DNA of 64,000 nucleotides from Flavipsychrobacter sp. (GTDB taxonomy: Bacteria; Bacteroidota; Bacteroidia; Chitinophagales; Chitinophagaceae): assembly GCA_017849575.1 (NCBI GenBank), contig JAFIGV010000005.1:1-64000 (forward strand), in the 5' to 3' direction. Of this stretch, positions 4,045 through 52,503 are shown in pieces (within the stretch, counting starts at the first letter, position 1; each line of letters opens with the position of its first letter). Position numbers and translations under genes: made by a program. The notes under the pieces are model-generated. The model worked only from the letters and a program-made list of their open reading frames with translations. It had not been told where the DNA came from and did no database searches.

Positions 4045-5105
4045 TGTTGCGCTATCTGGCACGTCGGCTACGCTATAGTCTTTTTGTGCTGCTGGGGGTG
4101 GTGACACTGGTATTCTTTCTGTTTAACGTGCTGCCGGGCGACCCGGCGCGCCTCACTATGGGTCAGCGGAGCGATCTGCAGTCGCTGGAGAATATGCGCC
4201 GCGAAATGAATCTGGATAAGCCGGTATGGACCCGATATGTAATTTTTATTGGCGAGCTCTCCCCGCTCTGGATTTATCCTAACGACACAGCCATGCAGCA
4301 ACGGTACCATTACCTGAAGCTGTTACCGATGCCCGGCGAGCGCAGCCTCACGCTTAAGTATCCTTATCTGGGACGCTCGTACCGCACCAAGCGACTGGTG
4401 GGCACCGTGCTGGCGGAAGCGCTACCCGGAACCGTGATCCTGGCATTGGCGGCAATGACCCTGGCTACCGTGCTGGGCATTTTGCTGGGTGTGCTGGCGG
4501 CGGTAAAAAAAGACAGTTTTATCGACAGTTCGTCTATTGCGGCGAGTGTTGCGGGTATTTCGATGCCCTCATTCTTTGCCGGTCTGCTGATAGCCTATGT
4601 ATTTGGCTTTCTGCTCAGCGACTATACCCATCTCTCCATGACCGGTAGCCTTTGGGAGTATGATGCGCTGAGCGGAAGACGACTGGTACTATCGAACCTT
4701 ATCCTGCCCGCTATAGCGCTGGGTATTCGTCCGTTGGCCATCATCACGCAGCTCACCCGCAGTGCTATGCTCGACGCTTTGTCGCAGGACTATATCCGTA
4801 CGGCCTATGCCAAGGGACTGTCCACCCGGCGGGTGCTTTTTCGTCATGCCCTGCCCAATGCACTCAACCCCGTGGTGACCGCCATTTCGGGATGGCTGGC
4901 TGAGCTGCTGGCCGGGTCGTTTTTTGTGGAATATATTTTTGGATGGAAGGGTGTGGGCCGGCTAACGATTGATGCGCTGGACAAATTTGACTTTCCGGTG
5001 GTGATGGGTTCGGTCTTGCTGACCGCCTTCATCTTTATAGGGGTCAACCTGTTTACCGACCTGATCTATGGCTGGATTGACCCCAGAATACGGTTACAAA
5101 ACTAA
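4044..5105 (+). CDS. ABC transporter permease, DppB/OppB type
   Basis: This 353-residue integral membrane protein resembles the first permease of peptide/nickel ABC importers. It has an N-terminal helix (RYSLFVLLGVVTLVFFLFNVLPGDPA), a long periplasmic segment, then about five helices. The cytoplasmic coupling region YIRTAYAKGLSTRRVLFRHALPNALNP at about residues 251-277 is the EAA-type loop that contacts the ATPase. It starts with GTG at 4044, overlapping the stop of the DoxX-like gene (TAGTG). No second permease, ATPase or binding protein is nearby, so its partners must be encoded elsewhere or it works in an unusual complex. Confidence 0.88.
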   Translation: MLRYLARRLRYSLFVLLGVVTLVFFLFNVLPGDPARLTMGQRSDLQSLENMRREMNLDKPVWTRYVIFIGELSPLWIYPNDTAMQQRYHYLKLLPMPGERSLTLKYPYLGRSYRTKRLVGTVLAEALPGTVILALAAMTLATVLGILLGVLAAVKKDSFIDSSSIAASVAGISMPSFFAGLLIAYVFGFLLSDYTHLSMTGSLWEYDALSGRRLVLSNLILPAIALGIRPLAIITQLTRSAMLDALSQDYIRTAYAKGLSTRRVLFRHALPNALNPVVTAISGWLAELLAGSFFVEYIFGWKGVGRLTIDALDKFDFPVVMGSVLLTAFIFIGVNLFTDLIYGWIDPRIRLQN

Positions 5106-5178
5106 GTTAACATCAACGTTAAGAAATTATTACCATTTCATTATTTCTTCTTTCTGTGAAAGCAGCCGAATAGTTTTG
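5106..5178 (+). promoter_or_regulatory. Promoter with putative phosphate-response operator upstream of porin gene
   Basis: A -7 element TAGTTTTG (5171-5178) fits the Bacteroidota TAnnTTTG consensus, but no TTTG lies at the -33 distance. At 5118-5138 is GTTAAGAAAT followed by TATTACCATTT, nearly identical to the sequence at 6553-6573 and at exactly the same 53-base distance from the -7 box. TTA triplets recur at 5119, 5130 and 5141, an 11-bp period expected for tandem binding of an OmpR/PhoB-type regulator. The regulator's identity is inferred from the genes controlled. Confidence 0.6.
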
Positions 5179-5193
5179 CGCGCAATTCGATTT

Positions 5194-6516
5194 ATGCGTT
5201 CATTAAAGACTCTTTTCGCATGCGTTATGCTTATGGCTTTTAGCATAAGTGTACAGGCTCAGAAATTTCTTACCGACATGATGGACACCTCTACTGAAAT
5301 GGGGAGGGGCATGTTGTCCATCTATCAAAAATTCGGCTCCATTAAGTTTACCGGCTATACACAGCCTCAGTTTCAGTGGGCCGAAAGCAAGGGAGCGAAG
5401 GGCTTTGCCGGAGGAGATTTTGCTGCCAACTCCAATACGAGATTTATGCTTCGACGCAATCGTATTCGTCTGGACTATGCTTACAATAACAAGCGTGATG
5501 AAGTTGCCGCTTACTTTGTATTTCAGTTTGATGCTACCGAGCGCGGTGTGTTTGCCCGCGATATGTGGCTCCGGCTGTTTGAGAACAGATGGCAGGCCTT
5601 TTACCTTACCACCGGTTTGTTTGCCCGTCCGTTTGGTTATGAGGTAAACCTCTCATCGGCCGACCGTGAAAGTCCTGAGCGCGGACGGATGTCGCAAACC
5701 CTGATGAAAGTGGAGCGCGACATCGGCATCATGCTGAGCTACGAACCCCGGAGGCTGGAAAGCAAGCTGAACATGCTAAAGATTGACCTGGGCGTGTTTA
5801 ACGGACCTGGCCTCAATAACACCACCGATTATGATAGTTATAAAGACATTATCGGAAGGATCAGCATCAAACCTACCAAAATAAAACCATTGGGCATCTT
5901 CGTCTCCGGCGGCATATCGTACCTGCACGGGGCGGTGGGAAATTTTTCGCCCTGGCTGTATGAGATGAAAGAAAGCGGCGGCCAGCAGCAATTTGTGGCA
6001 GACAGCACCGCAGCCCATGTGGACTATGCCGCACCGAGGCATTACTACGGTGCCGACATCCAGATAAAAATACCTAACCGCAAAGGCTGTACGGAGCTGC
6101 GCGCCGAGTACATACGCGGTACACAACCGGGCACAGCCAGCAGTTCTGAAACACCGGGCACCTACCCCATTTATACGGCGGGCGTTGCACAACCTCTGTT
6201 TATTCGTCCTTTTGACGGTGCCTACTTCTACCTGCTGCAGAACCTGTTCAGCACACAGCATCAGCTTGTGGTGAAATACGAGTGGTATGATCCCAACACT
6301 GCGGTGCAGGGAGAAGAACTGAGTGCTGCACGCGGACTATCGGCAGCAGATATAAAATACAGTACGCTGGGTGTGGGCTATGTGTACTACGCTAATCCAC
6401 ACCTGAAGGTGACCGCTTACTATGACATGATCACTAATGAAAGCACCAAACTACCCGGATATACGGGAGATGTGAAGGACAATGTGTTTACCCTGCGCAT
6501 GCAGTATAGATTTTAA
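5194..6516 (+). CDS. Outer membrane porin, phosphate-selective porin O/P-like
   Basis: The 440-residue product has a clear Sec signal peptide (MRSLKTLFACVMLMAFSISVQAQ). Its mature part is rich in alternating polar/aromatic strands such as FMLRRNRIRLDYAY and AAYFVFQF, and it ends in the aromatic outer-membrane signal FTLRMQYRF. This fits a 16- to 18-strand porin of the OprP/OprO family. The ATG at 5194 puts the signal peptide at the N-terminus. Its position just before a DUF47 regulator and a PiT transporter, with a matching promoter element, suggests phosphate passage across the outer membrane. Substrate selectivity is inferred from family and context. Confidence 0.85.
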   Translation: MRSLKTLFACVMLMAFSISVQAQKFLTDMMDTSTEMGRGMLSIYQKFGSIKFTGYTQPQFQWAESKGAKGFAGGDFAANSNTRFMLRRNRIRLDYAYNNKRDEVAAYFVFQFDATERGVFARDMWLRLFENRWQAFYLTTGLFARPFGYEVNLSSADRESPERGRMSQTLMKVERDIGIMLSYEPRRLESKLNMLKIDLGVFNGPGLNNTTDYDSYKDIIGRISIKPTKIKPLGIFVSGGISYLHGAVGNFSPWLYEMKESGGQQQFVADSTAAHVDYAAPRHYYGADIQIKIPNRKGCTELRAEYIRGTQPGTASSSETPGTYPIYTAGVAQPLFIRPFDGAYFYLLQNLFSTQHQLVVKYEWYDPNTAVQGEELSAARGLSAADIKYSTLGVGYVYYANPHLKVTAYYDMITNESTKLPGYTGDVKDNVFTLRMQYRF

Positions 6517-6540
6517 ATAATACATGGGCTTAGTTTTTAT

Positions 6541-6613
6541 GTAAAATCAAAGGTTAAGAAATCATTATCATTTTCGATGATTCCTGCAACCGCCTTATTC
6601 AGAAATACTTTTG
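6541..6613 (+). promoter_or_regulatory. Promoter with putative phosphate-response operator upstream of DUF47-PiT operon
   Basis: The -7 box is TACTTTTG at 6606-6613, again with no good -33 TTTG, consistent with activator dependence. The element GTTAAGAAAT then CATTATCATTT at 6553-6573 differs from the porin-promoter copy at only two positions over about 21 bases and sits at the same spacing. The predicted transcription start is a few bases after 6613, giving a short leader before the ATG at 6637. Confidence 0.6.
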
Positions 6614-6636: not shown

Positions 6637-7284
6637 ATGGGATTGACATCCTTCGTAAAAATGTTCATGCCGAAAGACAAGGTTTTTTATGGCCTTTTCG
6701 AGGAGGTAGCCGTGGTGCTTTCGGACATGGCCTCTGTCTTTACCGCAGCCATCAATGAAACCGATGCGGGAAAGAGAAGCCAGTTGCTGAAAAGCCTGGA
6801 AGAACTGGAGCACAAGAATGACGAAATAACACACAAAATATTCATCGAGCTGGGCCGAAATTTCATTACCCCGTTCGACCGGGAAGACATCCACTCCCTG
6901 GCCACTTCGCTGGATGATATTGCCGATTTTATCTGGGCGGCAGCCAAGCGCATTACCAACTATTCGATGGAAGACACAGACCCGATCACGCTGGATTTTT
7001 CGGCGGTGATTACCAAGTCCATCAACTCGCTGAACAAAGCCGTGCGTGAGCTGCGCGATATGAAAGACCTGCGCTCCATTACCGAGAGCTGTGTGATCAT
7101 CAACAGCCTTGAAAATGAAGGCGACGAACTGCTGGATAAGGCCATGATGAATCTATTTTCCTCCTCAATTGATCCCGTGGAGATCATCAAACGCAAAGAC
7201 CTCTACGAGATGCTTGAAATTGTGACCGATAAGTGCGAGGATGCTGCGAACGTTATCGAATCAATCATTATCAAGTACGCTTAA
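6637..7284 (+). CDS. DUF47/PhoU-like phosphate transport regulator
   Basis: The 215-residue all-helical cytoplasmic protein has the DUF47 features: an N-terminal FVKMFMPKDKVFYGLFEE segment, the motif LEHKNDEITHKIF near residue 65, FDREDIHSLATSLDDIADF near residue 87, and a second NSLENEGDELLDKAM metal-binding-type motif near residue 155. Such proteins resemble PhoU and are usually coded beside PiT transporters, whose activity they are thought to control. The PiT gene follows 24 bp downstream, almost certainly in the same operon. Confidence 0.93.
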   Translation: MGLTSFVKMFMPKDKVFYGLFEEVAVVLSDMASVFTAAINETDAGKRSQLLKSLEELEHKNDEITHKIFIELGRNFITPFDREDIHSLATSLDDIADFIWAAAKRITNYSMEDTDPITLDFSAVITKSINSLNKAVRELRDMKDLRSITESCVIINSLENEGDELLDKAMMNLFSSSIDPVEIIKRKDLYEMLEIVTDKCEDAANVIESIIIKYA

Positions 7285-7308: not shown

Positions 7309-8745
7309 ATGACGGTTTTGCTCATAACGATCATTGCACTGGCACTGATTTTCGACTACATCAACGGATTTCATGATGCCGCCAATTCCATTGCAACGAT
7401 CGTCTCCACAAAAGTACTGACGCCCTTCCAGGCGGTATTGTGGGCAGCAGTTTTCAACTTTGCAGCCTTTTTCATTTTCAAAGACCATGGCGTGGCCAAC
7501 ACCATAGCCAAAACGGTGAAAGAAGATTTTATCACCCTGCCGGTGATCATCTCGGGGCTGATTGCAGCCATTGGCTGGAACCTCCTTACCTGGTGGTTTG
7601 GAATACCTTCCTCTTCATCGCACACCCTTATTGGTGGCTTTGCCGGAGCTGCCATAGCCCATGCGGGCATTAATAGTGTGAACCCCGAGCCGGTGATTAA
7701 AACAGTAAGCTTTATTGTGCTCGCCCCCCTCGTTGGGATGATCATGGCTTTTATCATCTCATTGTGGTTTATCAACTCCTTTAAAAAAGGAATACTGCCC
7801 AAGCTATTTTCGCTACTGGTTATTGGTGCCACCATTTATTTTGTAACCGGCACATTAACCACAAGCCAGACGCAGCTCCTGGGCATGAAAACCGATGGCA
7901 GACATTCTGAAATCGGCCTTTTCATTGCTGAGGTTCCCAACAAGTCGTCTGCACAGATGATCGGCTTTAAAAAAGAAGACACACTGCTGGCAGTAGAAGG
8001 TATTCCCATCAAAAACGAAAAACAACTCGACAAGATATTGATGAGCTACCACCAGGGCGACAGCATCCACCTTACTGTGGAACGCAAGGGGGTTATTAAA
8101 ACAGTGGGCAGGGTGTATGAAACCAAGATCGAGGCGCATTTTTGGCAGGTAGTATTCTTTGGTCATAATTTCAAATGGATACTGCTCGGGCTGATCCTGA
8201 TCATCATGGCAAGTTTCACCCTTTTCCTGAGCAGCCTGAATGTGGCGCGGTCCACCCTTTGGTTTAAAAGGTTGCAGTTGATCTCTTCTGCAGCCTTCAG
8301 CATAGGGCACGGCGGCAATGATGCGCAAAAGGTTATGGGTATCATCACCGCAGCCTTAATAGCCGGCGGACGGATAGATACATTTGAACAAATGCCTGTC
8401 TGGGTGCCACTGGCCTGTTATACCTCCATGGGTCTCGGAACGATGAGCGGAGGCTGGAAAATCATTAAGACCATGGGTACGCGCATTACCAAGGTTACCC
8501 CTTTTGAGGGCGTAGCTGCAGAAACTGCAGGTGCCATTACCCTTTTTGTTACCGAGCAGCTCAAAATTCCGGTGAGTACAACGCACACCATCACAGGGTC
8601 TATCATCGGTGTTGGCGCCACCAAGCGATTGTCTGCTGTACGCTGGGGTGTCACTATCAATCTGCTTTGGGCATGGATACTGACCATACCTGTAAGCGGG
8701 CTGATGGCCGCCATCATCTATTTTATCTGGAATCTGTTTTCCTAA
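7309..8745 (+). CDS. pit: Inorganic phosphate transporter, PiT family, with inserted PDZ-like domain
   Basis: A low-affinity, cation-coupled phosphate transporter of the inner membrane (478 residues). The two inverted halves carry the family motifs GFHDAANSIAT (near residue 20) and GHGGNDAQKVMG (near residue 330), with SSSSHTLIGG and STTHTITGS as the paired loops. Between the halves, at about residues 198-272, is a soluble segment (GLFIAEVPNKSSAQMIGFKK, then DTLLAVEGIPIKNEKQLDKI and LTVERKG) that reads as a PDZ domain. By membrane topology it should face one side between helices. It is one intact frame, so this is not a frameshift artefact. A strong terminator follows at 8793. Confidence 0.93.
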   Translation: MTVLLITIIALALIFDYINGFHDAANSIATIVSTKVLTPFQAVLWAAVFNFAAFFIFKDHGVANTIAKTVKEDFITLPVIISGLIAAIGWNLLTWWFGIPSSSSHTLIGGFAGAAIAHAGINSVNPEPVIKTVSFIVLAPLVGMIMAFIISLWFINSFKKGILPKLFSLLVIGATIYFVTGTLTTSQTQLLGMKTDGRHSEIGLFIAEVPNKSSAQMIGFKKEDTLLAVEGIPIKNEKQLDKILMSYHQGDSIHLTVERKGVIKTVGRVYETKIEAHFWQVVFFGHNFKWILLGLILIIMASFTLFLSSLNVARSTLWFKRLQLISSAAFSIGHGGNDAQKVMGIITAALIAGGRIDTFEQMPVWVPLACYTSMGLGTMSGGWKIIKTMGTRITKVTPFEGVAAETAGAITLFVTEQLKIPVSTTHTITGSIIGVGATKRLSAVRWGVTINLLWAWILTIPVSGLMAAIIYFIWNLFS

Positions 8746-8895: not shown

Positions 8896-9459
8896 TTGCC
8901 GCAAAAACAAAAACATAGCGACCTGAGCGATGAGGAACTGCTGGGTAAATACCGCAGTACCGGCGACAATGAGTGGCTGGGCATATTGCTGCAACGCTAT
9001 ACTTTGCTCCTGCTCGGTGTGGGGCTCAAATACTTAAAAGACCGGAGTGCGGCCGAAGATGCTGTGCAGCATATCTTCGAAAAAACACTGAAGCAACTAC
9101 CGCCGGGTACCATTCACAACTTTAAAGGCTGGTTGTATGTGCTGCTTAAAAACCATTGTTTGCAAATACTCAGGAGCAAAAAAATACATTTCAGCGACGA
9201 GCAACTACACACCCTTGCCGAGGATGACGGACGACTGGATGAAATAAGACAAAAAGAAGCGACCCTTGCGGAAATGGAGCGATCGCTCGATGAACTGAAT
9301 GCAGAGCAACGCTGCGCGATAGAGCTTTTTTACCTGAAGAAAATGAGTTACCAGCAAATAATGGAACAGACCGGCTATAGCTTTATGCAAGTGAAAAGCC
9401 ATATCCAGAATGGAAAACGTAACTTGAAACTGATACTCAATAAAAAACTTGGCCGATAG
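8896..9459 (+). CDS. ECF-type RNA polymerase sigma factor
   Basis: This 187-residue sigma-70 family protein has region 2 around residues 25-95 (LLQRYTLLLLGVGLKYLKDR, then AAEDAVQHIFEKTLK and FKGWLYVLLKNHCL) and region 4 around residues 125-185 (LNAEQRCAIELFYLKKMSYQ, QIMEQTGYSFMQVKSHIQNG). I see no in-frame ATG upstream, so the start is taken as TTG at 8896; the downstream in-frame ATGs are inside the conserved domain. The next gene starts 5 bp after its stop and encodes a single-pass protein that is probably its membrane anchor or anti-sigma partner. Confidence 0.9.
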   Translation: MPQKQKHSDLSDEELLGKYRSTGDNEWLGILLQRYTLLLLGVGLKYLKDRSAAEDAVQHIFEKTLKQLPPGTIHNFKGWLYVLLKNHCLQILRSKKIHFSDEQLHTLAEDDGRLDEIRQKEATLAEMERSLDELNAEQRCAIELFYLKKMSYQQIMEQTGYSFMQVKSHIQNGKRNLKLILNKKLGR

Positions 9460-9464
9460 CCGCC

Positions 9465-9824
9465 ATGAGCAGAGAACAGGACATACCATTGTTTAATAAC
9501 GACCCGCCGGGCAAGCTTACGGAAGAGCGACTGCGCGCCTACATAGACGGGAGCCTGAGCCCGGCCGAACAACACGAAGTGGAACAATGGCTATCGGAGG
9601 AAGGTATGGAAAGTGATGCGCTGGAAGGCCTGCAACCGGCCGCGGCGGAAGAAAACATTCGGTCGGCAGAGCGGGTGAACCGACGACTTGCCCGGCAACT
9701 ACGTAAGGATAAGCTTCGCAAAAAACACCCGTACACTACCTACTGGACCGTCATCGCATTGCTGGTCATCCTGCTCGTATGCATCCTGGGCTATTGGGTG
9801 CTGCGACTTTCGTTAGGAAGCTAA
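9465..9824 (+). CDS. Small single-pass membrane protein, probable anti-sigma-type partner
   Basis: The 119-residue protein has a cytoplasmic segment with a pattern often seen in Bacteroidota sigma-factor partners: LTEERLRAYIDGSLSPAEQHEVEQWL, then SDALEGL near residue 52. A basic linker (RRLARQLRKDKLRKKH) and one C-terminal membrane helix (VIALLVILLVCILGYWVL) follow. Longer relatives continue into periplasmic sensor or TonB-like regions; this one stops just after the helix. It is 5 bp downstream of the ECF sigma gene and overlaps the convergent SET gene by 4 bases. An anti-sigma role is inferred. Confidence 0.7.
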   Translation: MSREQDIPLFNNDPPGKLTEERLRAYIDGSLSPAEQHEVEQWLSEEGMESDALEGLQPAAAEENIRSAERVNRRLARQLRKDKLRKKHPYTTYWTVIALLVILLVCILGYWVLRLSLGS

Positions 9825-51804: not shown

Positions 51805-52503
51805 TTAGTTCTGATCGTCCTTTAAAATGTAGCCCATGCCTACCTGAGTATGAATGAGCTTTGGCGTATAGCCCTTATCAAGTTTTTTTCGCAGAAAGTT
51901 TACATACACGTCTATTACATTGGTCTGAGGGTCAAAATCCGTGTCCCAAACAGATTTCGAAATATCCTCGCGGGAGACCACCTTGTCTTTGTTGCGCAGT
52001 AAAAATTCCAGCAGTTGAAATTCCTTCGCTGTGAGCGTTATTTTTTGTCCGCCACGGCGGGCTTCCTTCCGGTTCAGATCCAGCTCCAGATCGGCAACCT
52101 GCAGCACGGGCACTTCCTGCTCTGCCGGACGGCCCAATTCGGCACGCCTCAGCAATGCCTTGATCCTTGCCAACAGCTCCTTAAACTCAAAGGGTTTTGA
52201 GATATAGTCGTCTGCACCCAGCTCAAAGCCTTCCACTTTGTTGTCCGTAAAGTTTAATGCTGTAAGCAGCACCACGGGTACAAGCTTGTTTTTCTGGCGA
52301 ATAAATTTGCACAGCTCGTATCCGTTTATATAGGGAAGGTTGATATCAAGAATGATGAGATCGAAACCTGTAGCCGAAAACATGTCTTTCCCCTCCTTTC
52401 CGTTGTAGGCTATGGCTACATCATAGTCGTGCTCTTCAAGACCCGCCTGTATGGTATTTGCTAATTTTTTTTCGTCTTCAACTAATAAAATCTTTGGTTT
52501 CAT
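51805..52503 (-). CDS. Response regulator, OmpR/PhoB family
   Basis: The 232-residue protein has a receiver domain (residues 1-120) with acidic pocket VEDEKK, phospho-accepting Asp in LIILDINLPYING near residue 53 and Lys in DDYISKPFEFKEL near 105. A winged-helix DNA-binding domain (about 135-230; LTAKEFQLLEFLLRNKDKVV, then TNVIDVYVNFLRKKLD) follows. It belongs to the family whose members bind tandem 10-11-bp repeats. It is translated immediately before its kinase. The ATG at 52501-52503 gives the canonical start MKPKILLVEDE. Confidence 0.95.
   Translation of the reverse strand: MKPKILLVEDEKKLANTIQAGLEEHDYDVAIAYNGKEGKDMFSATGFDLIILDINLPYINGYELCKFIRQKNKLVPVVLLTALNFTDNKVEGFELGADDYISKPFEFKELLARIKALLRRAELGRPAEQEVPVLQVADLELDLNRKEARRGGQKITLTAKEFQLLEFLLRNKDKVVSREDISKSVWDTDFDPQTNVIDVYVNFLRKKLDKGYTPKLIHTQVGMGYILKDDQN

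Follow-up and report, generated by a model that had tools for sequence, protein, structure and literature searches.

The promoters of a porin gene and of the DUF47-PiT operon that follows it each carry a 21-bp element of 11-bp direct repeats, beginning exactly 53 bp before the -7 box. Both lie in the window, the 64,000-nt stretch of Flavipsychrobacter sp. DNA analysed here. The sites and their spacing are conserved among relatives, they recur at phosphate genes, and in several relatives they adjoin genes of the PhoB-PhoR type. The elements are probably a Pho box to which PhoB binds, most likely to activate the porin and PiT genes at low phosphate; PhoB as the binder, activation as the sign and low phosphate as the signal are what we infer from these sequence comparisons. 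The features of the locus, all on the plus strand, are the following.

5103-5113, +, possible extra forward half-site TAAGTTAACAT, directly 5' of the porin element (weak match to the forward-box model R2 described below, 5.3 bits, E 3.5)
5118-5138, +, porin-promoter element, candidate Pho box in reversed orientation, GTTAAGAAATTATTACCATTT, with a third TTA at 5141
5171-5178, +, porin -7 box TAGTTTTG, 53 bp from the element start
5194-6516, +, porin gene, weak Porin_O_P match (PF07396, 19.0 bits vs a cut-off of 20.9)
6553-6573, +, DUF47-PiT promoter element, GTTAAGAAATCATTATCATTT
6606-6613, +, DUF47-PiT -7 box TACTTTTG, 53 bp from the element start
6637-7284, +, DUF47 gene (PhoU_div, PF01865)
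7309-8745, +, PiT phosphate transporter (PF01384) with a PDZ domain inserted at residues 192-266

The two elements and their rarity in the genome

The near-identity of the 21-base elements at 5118 and 6553, and the -7 box exactly 53 bp from the start of each, had been pointed out in a first-pass annotation and were found as described. The same holds for the lack of a TTTG at -33, which is absent from both window promoters, and for the DNA between element and box, which shows no visible similarity between the porin and DUF47 sites. The 11-bp period of TTA triplets that had also been claimed stands at the porin site, where three are found at 5119, 5130 and 5141; at the DUF47 site there are two (6554 and 6565), and as the third is missing the period is weaker there than had been implied.

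When up to three mismatches were allowed, the pattern shared by the two elements matched twice in the window, compared with a mean of 0.01 in 100 shuffled versions, none of which reached two. In the whole genome (3.61 Mb) it matched both window sites without mismatch and two others with three mismatches, and a reversed control pattern gave two matches in the same 3.61 Mb. A sequence-only covariance model, R1, was then built from the DUF47 upstream regions of 52 relatives, the window being excluded from training. Within the window, R1 scored the porin element at 20.9 bits (E 2.7e-5) and the DUF47 element at 18.7 bits (E 1.4e-4), the next-best match reaching 7.3 bits. Among the 150 of 1276 first-look candidates that were scored in the 3.6-Mb genome, the window sites ranked second and third, behind C24:55246 (22.6 bits) and ahead of C24:7632, a match without clear support (E 0.72). 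The top-ranking site (L095:1506-1552), likewise without clear support, lies 5' of a gene with an aspartyl-protease domain and has a TTTG out of phase.

Positions 8896-9824, beyond the PiT gene, encode a sigma factor of the ECF type and, after it, a short protein that has a membrane stretch at its C-terminus and by eye resembles an anti-sigma factor. No homologue of the ECF-type sigma factor was detected by tblastn in the loci of 80 relatives.

Conservation at the promoters of relatives

Upstream regions of DUF47 were compared in 80 relatives, which include Taibaiella, Flavipsychrobacter and other Chitinophagaceae. A position weight matrix (PWM) of the element reached its threshold 5' of DUF47 in 78 of them, and a TAnnTT[TC]G box stands 52-55 bp from the element start in 72 of these 78. 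The cultured soil relatives Taibaiella soli (L005) and Taibaiella lutea (L053) are among those that have the element at DUF47. The threshold was reached in 5 of 4000 windows of Markov sequence. A few of the 78 are doubtful, such as L025, where the match is low-scoring and a clear site is found at the porin promoter instead. Around the conserved elements the flanks change among relatives. The sigma promoter consensus of Bacteroidota consists of a -7 box, TAnnTTTG, with a TTTG at -33. A -33-like TT[TG]G, 17-27 bp 5' of the -7 box, is present in 5 of the 72 relatives with a box and absent in 67, and its lack there and in both window promoters is as expected if an activator is needed.

Since the PWM had been fitted on the same 80 loci together with the DUF47 site of the window, a hold-out was made in the genomes of the family. 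DUF47 is present in 58 of 60, with the element upstream in 50 and without it in eight. After removal of nine near-copies of training loci the element was found in 42 of 49, with the box at 52-55 bp in 37; with the window's own locus also removed, the numbers were 41 of 48 and 36. A PiT ORF adjoins DUF47 in 75 of the 80 relatives, with lengths of 320 to 591 aa, and none was found in the other five.

A porin homologue on the same strand precedes DUF47 in 13 of the 80 relatives. In 11 of these 13 a site lies 1.2-1.5 kb 5' of DUF47 with a box at 53-54 bp, while the remaining two (L008 and L012) have a weaker site and no box. The recurrence of the element thus covers the orthologous porin genes as well as the DUF47-PiT operons. 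Weaker R1 matches also occur in the family genomes, many of them without a spaced box and not 5' of DUF47 or porin genes. The genome of the window contains a second DUF47 gene (C32, L271:3600-3850), with a sub-threshold site of the window type (4.7) and TAGCTTTG at 54 bp; no PiT gene was seen beside it in the surrounding 7 kb.

A forward box at pst and other phosphate genes

PstC was not found in the genome of the window, and the pst promoters of relatives were therefore used as a test. Two matches to PBP_like_2 were obtained in this genome, one in a PstS-like lipoprotein (L099) and one in a stretch of an OxyR-type LysR-like gene (by eye). In the family, PstC scored above its cut-off in 18 of 60 genomes, at 23 places, from which 20 pst regions were taken. 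Ten of these, of the porin-pstS type, entered a motif; the other ten (L210, at a contig end, L215, L216 and L218-L224) were left out, as they either showed no TTAACA array or ran into the end of the contig. The ten porin-pstS promoters contain tandem repeats such as GTTAACATTAAGGTAACATTCCGGTAACATT.

DUF47 is also present in 49 of 119 genomes of the class, 45 of them outside the family, and 26 of these 45 were obtained as loci. Tandem 11-bp repeats of the form CTTAACATTAACTTAACATT, hereafter the forward box, are found in the ten family pst promoters and in 15 of the 26 out-of-family DUF47 promoters. Three others, from one genus of another family (L292, L294 and L300), have the orientation of the window with the box at 42 bp, one turn closer than 53, and in the last eight neither version exceeded its threshold. 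A TTTG lies 31, 42 or 53 (±1) bp from the forward box in 22 of the 25 promoters, as compared with a mean of 1.8 and a maximum of 7 of 25 when the downstream DNA was shuffled. The forward-box threshold was reached by 5 of 3600 Markov sequences.

The family element and the forward box are related by reversal. Against the forward PWM, the reverse complement of the element reached a correlation sum of 17.6, compared with 12.0 in the same orientation and with a column-shuffle null of mean 7.9 and maximum 13.8 (n = 2000). When the family PWM was run over all 20 pst regions, a minus-strand match coincided with the pst box in L208, L212, L213 and L217, four of the ten promoters of the porin-pstS type. 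The half-sites are GTTAAG/ATTA in the window type and CTTAACATT in the forward type. Self-correlation of the PWMs peaks at a lag of 11, with values of 0.50 for the family element and 0.79 for the forward box, so that both consist of direct repeats with the 11-bp period of a Pho box.

A second sequence-only covariance model, R2, was built from 24 forward boxes; like R1, it scored part of the first-look candidates, 150 of 722 in the genome of the window and fewer per genome in the other scans made with either model. In the window the porin element was the best R2 match, on the minus strand at 5113-5132, although a weak one (7.1 bits, E 0.88), and the DUF47 element was not among the R2 matches. 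Over the class, 50 matches were obtained in 40 of the 119 genomes, 30 of which were taken as loci and examined. Eight were training sites and 22 were new, some of them in genomes that also gave training sites. The gene assigned to each site was the longest same-strand ORF starting within 350 bp. Ten of the 22 new sites precede phosphate-transport genes, namely DUF47 (two), Na/Pi cotransporter (two), PiT (one), PstS- or PstC-type (two) and Porin_O_P genes (three, one of which falls 0.3 bits short of the cut-off). Another three stand before outer-membrane genes (two TonB receptors and one Omp85), four precede genes for an aspartokinase, a fatty acid hydroxylase, an M10 peptidase and a K+ transporter, and five have no ORF over 106 aa behind them. 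A TT[TC]G at 31, 42 or 53 (±1) bp was present at 10 of the 13 phosphate or outer-membrane loci and at none of the nine others.

The first-pass annotation had suggested that the elements would define a phosphate box of Bacteroidota. This proposal is supported by the recurrence at DUF47-PiT and porin promoters and, in the opposite-strand form, at pst, Na/Pi, PiT and Porin_O_P genes, with the refinement that the window sites themselves belong to a reversed subtype typical of their family and are not the general box.

Among 60 family genomes R2 gave 11 matches, including three pst training sites. One more lies at a TonB receptor gene divergent from DUF47 (G014), and one, in G032, is cut by the contig end but has a TTTG in phase; by eye, none of the others is beside an evident phosphate gene. 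No strong R2 match was found in the genome of the window among the 150 of 722 candidates scored, the best having an E of 0.32 (C9:26691). This match and C30:111099 (E 1.0) are without clear support. C9:26691 (L302) and a site in a family genome (G023:C18:30989, L311) both lie some 80-120 bp 5' of DnaB-like genes (by eye), and no spaced TTTG was seen near either in the stretch inspected. The second-best match, C28:2255 (E 0.40; L316:2199-2287), is a weak forward box between a TonB receptor gene and a lipoprotein gene, with TAGCTTCG in phase and TTCG at 53 bp. In G014 it is homologues of this gene pair (35% and 44% identical) that stand divergent from DUF47, and their forward box is at 31 bp. 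The divergent region in that genome (L317:7620-7780) contains both box types, forward for the TonB receptor and reversed for DUF47. In F. johnsoniae, some pairs of TonB receptor and lipoprotein belong, according to the available text, to the most strongly induced genes under low phosphate (PMC8115612).

The candidate regulator and comparison with known systems

Eight OmpR-type regulators were found in the genome of the window. The highest PhoB scores were those of the regulator encoded at G000:C1:57259-57945 (the C1 regulator), which is followed by a PhoR/PnpS-like kinase, although its scores are under the curated PhoB cut-offs (TIGR02154, 214.9 < 296.2; NF053854, 212.4 < 270). The window itself contains an OmpR-type regulator gene at 51823-52050 that is closest to heavy-metal models (CzcR/CopR-type), below their cut-off, and not to PhoB.

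In four family genomes (G036, G055, G023 and G029), orthologues of the C1 regulator and its kinase are encoded directly 5' of DUF47 on the same strand, and the element sits between the kinase gene and DUF47. The regulators of G036, G023 and G029 share 59-62% identity with the C1 regulator, and none shares more than 37% with any of the other seven. At a further locus, L084, which is at a contig end, only the kinase was seen. The synteny of phoB-phoR with DUF47 is present in at least 4 of 58 family loci, a lower bound as the flanks were short. Of 27 class loci, 7 were flagged as having a homologue of the regulator or the kinase close to DUF47. Sites of the TTAACAATT type are found 5' of phoB in the four family genomes; at least in G036, G055 and G023, the region also lies 5' of a divergent gene. 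Upstream of phoB in the genome of the window there was no PWM match, and a weak CTTAACA was seen by eye.

The self-similarity at lag 11, the recurrence at phosphate genes and this synteny together support the earlier suggestion of a tandem site for an OmpR/PhoB-type activator. The 11-bp half-sites would be bound head-to-tail by the phosphorylated C1 regulator. With the -7 box assumed to begin near -11, the elements would span about -64 to -44, an activator position, and from there PhoB~P would most likely recruit RNA polymerase to both promoters under phosphate scarcity. The window elements run in reverse of the CTTAACATTAACTTAACATT box, which the family has at its pst genes and other members of the class have at genes for DUF47, Na/Pi, PiT and porin. 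As a tentative explanation, PhoB of Bacteroidota may perhaps activate from tandem arrays in either orientation provided that the helical phase with the -7 box is kept, the arrays at PiT and porin genes having been flipped in this family at 53 bp and in one genus elsewhere at 42 bp.

The orfA gene of S. meliloti is presumably DUF47-like. According to the available text, the orfA-pit operon is repressed on phosphate starvation, with the box just 5' of the translation start (PMC3131613). PhoB could likewise bind and repress the porin and PiT operons at low phosphate, the reversed orientation marking repressed targets, and this would agree with the reversal of the family's DUF47 boxes relative to its pst boxes and with OprP of F. 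johnsoniae, for which no significant change at low phosphate is given in the available text (PMC8115612). Such repression is considered unlikely. The S. meliloti box sits by the start codon, whereas the elements described here stand 5' of a -7 box at a tightly fixed distance with no -33; 15 of the 26 out-of-family DUF47 boxes share the orientation of the pst box; and repression of PiT under scarcity would be odd in a genome where no PstC was found.

It is also improbable that the elements are bound by another OmpR-family regulator in response to another signal. Motifs within this family overlap, that of R. anatipestifer PhoP being likened to the ArcA motif in the available text (PMC9603813), and the C1 regulator is below the curated PhoB cut-offs; but the synteny singles out one regulator of the eight, whose orthologue adjoins DUF47 in four genomes, and forward boxes are found again before genes of the Na/Pi, Pst, PiT and porin types. 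Chance resemblance of AT-rich 21-mers, or the copying of one promoter to the adjacent gene, which the first-pass annotation already thought unlikely, has a negligible probability in view of the shuffling result, the rarity in the genome and a conservation that extends to 78 of 80 relatives although their flanks differ.

A candidate Pho box that is searchable and tied to an unusual -7 promoter could allow phosphate regulons to be predicted from genomes in Bacteroidota, where PhoB regulons have been studied, in the available texts, by expression, bulk binding or DAP-seq (PMC9603813, PMC8115612, PMC3547664). Plant-associated Bacteroidetes are reported, in the available text, to be without PstSABC (PMC8115612). 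The present data suggest that in lineages lacking Pst it is PiT that comes under phosphate control. The reversed subtype offers a natural experiment on the contacts between a tandem activator and the polymerase.

The Pho half-site of E. coli is CTGTCAT, and box sequences differ between phyla. The elements resemble the E. coli-type box in their 11-nt direct repeats, their association with phosphate-uptake genes and their position 5' of the core promoter, but their half-sites are of other sequence, they are spaced on a TAnnTTTG -7 box, and those of the window are reversed relative to the pst boxes of their own family. As the CTGTCAT half-site is absent, the element was not filed as an E. coli-type box.

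That Pho boxes generally consist of two or more 11-nt direct repeats bound head-to-tail is already known from the available text of PMC4415409, as are, from the texts cited below, the binding of PhoB at pst in B. fragilis and the TTTAACA core in R. anatipestifer. A literature search that covered few subscription papers and no bioRxiv preprints did not return a description of the Bacteroidota box, of the phasing it keeps with the -7 element or of its reversed form at PiT and porin genes, so that these three appear to be new as far as searched. Among the closest systems, and in the same phylum, is the motif of R. anatipestifer PhoP, whose DAP-seq core is TTTAACA and whose PhoPR system is linked to phosphate starvation (PMC9603813). 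Unlike the elements of the window, it is associated with many non-phosphate targets, the DAP-seq giving 583 target genes or peaks, and neither a -7 spacing nor the porin/DUF47-PiT architecture is given in the available text (PMC9603813). In B. fragilis, PhoB binds at the pst promoter, and pstC expression under low phosphate depends on it; the available text reports binding to a 512-bp fragment without giving the site sequence (PMC3547664). The S. meliloti orfA-pit operon is, like the present one, a pit operon with a Pho box, but it is repressed and its box is near the start codon (PMC3131613, available text), whereas the elements described here lie 5' of the promoter.
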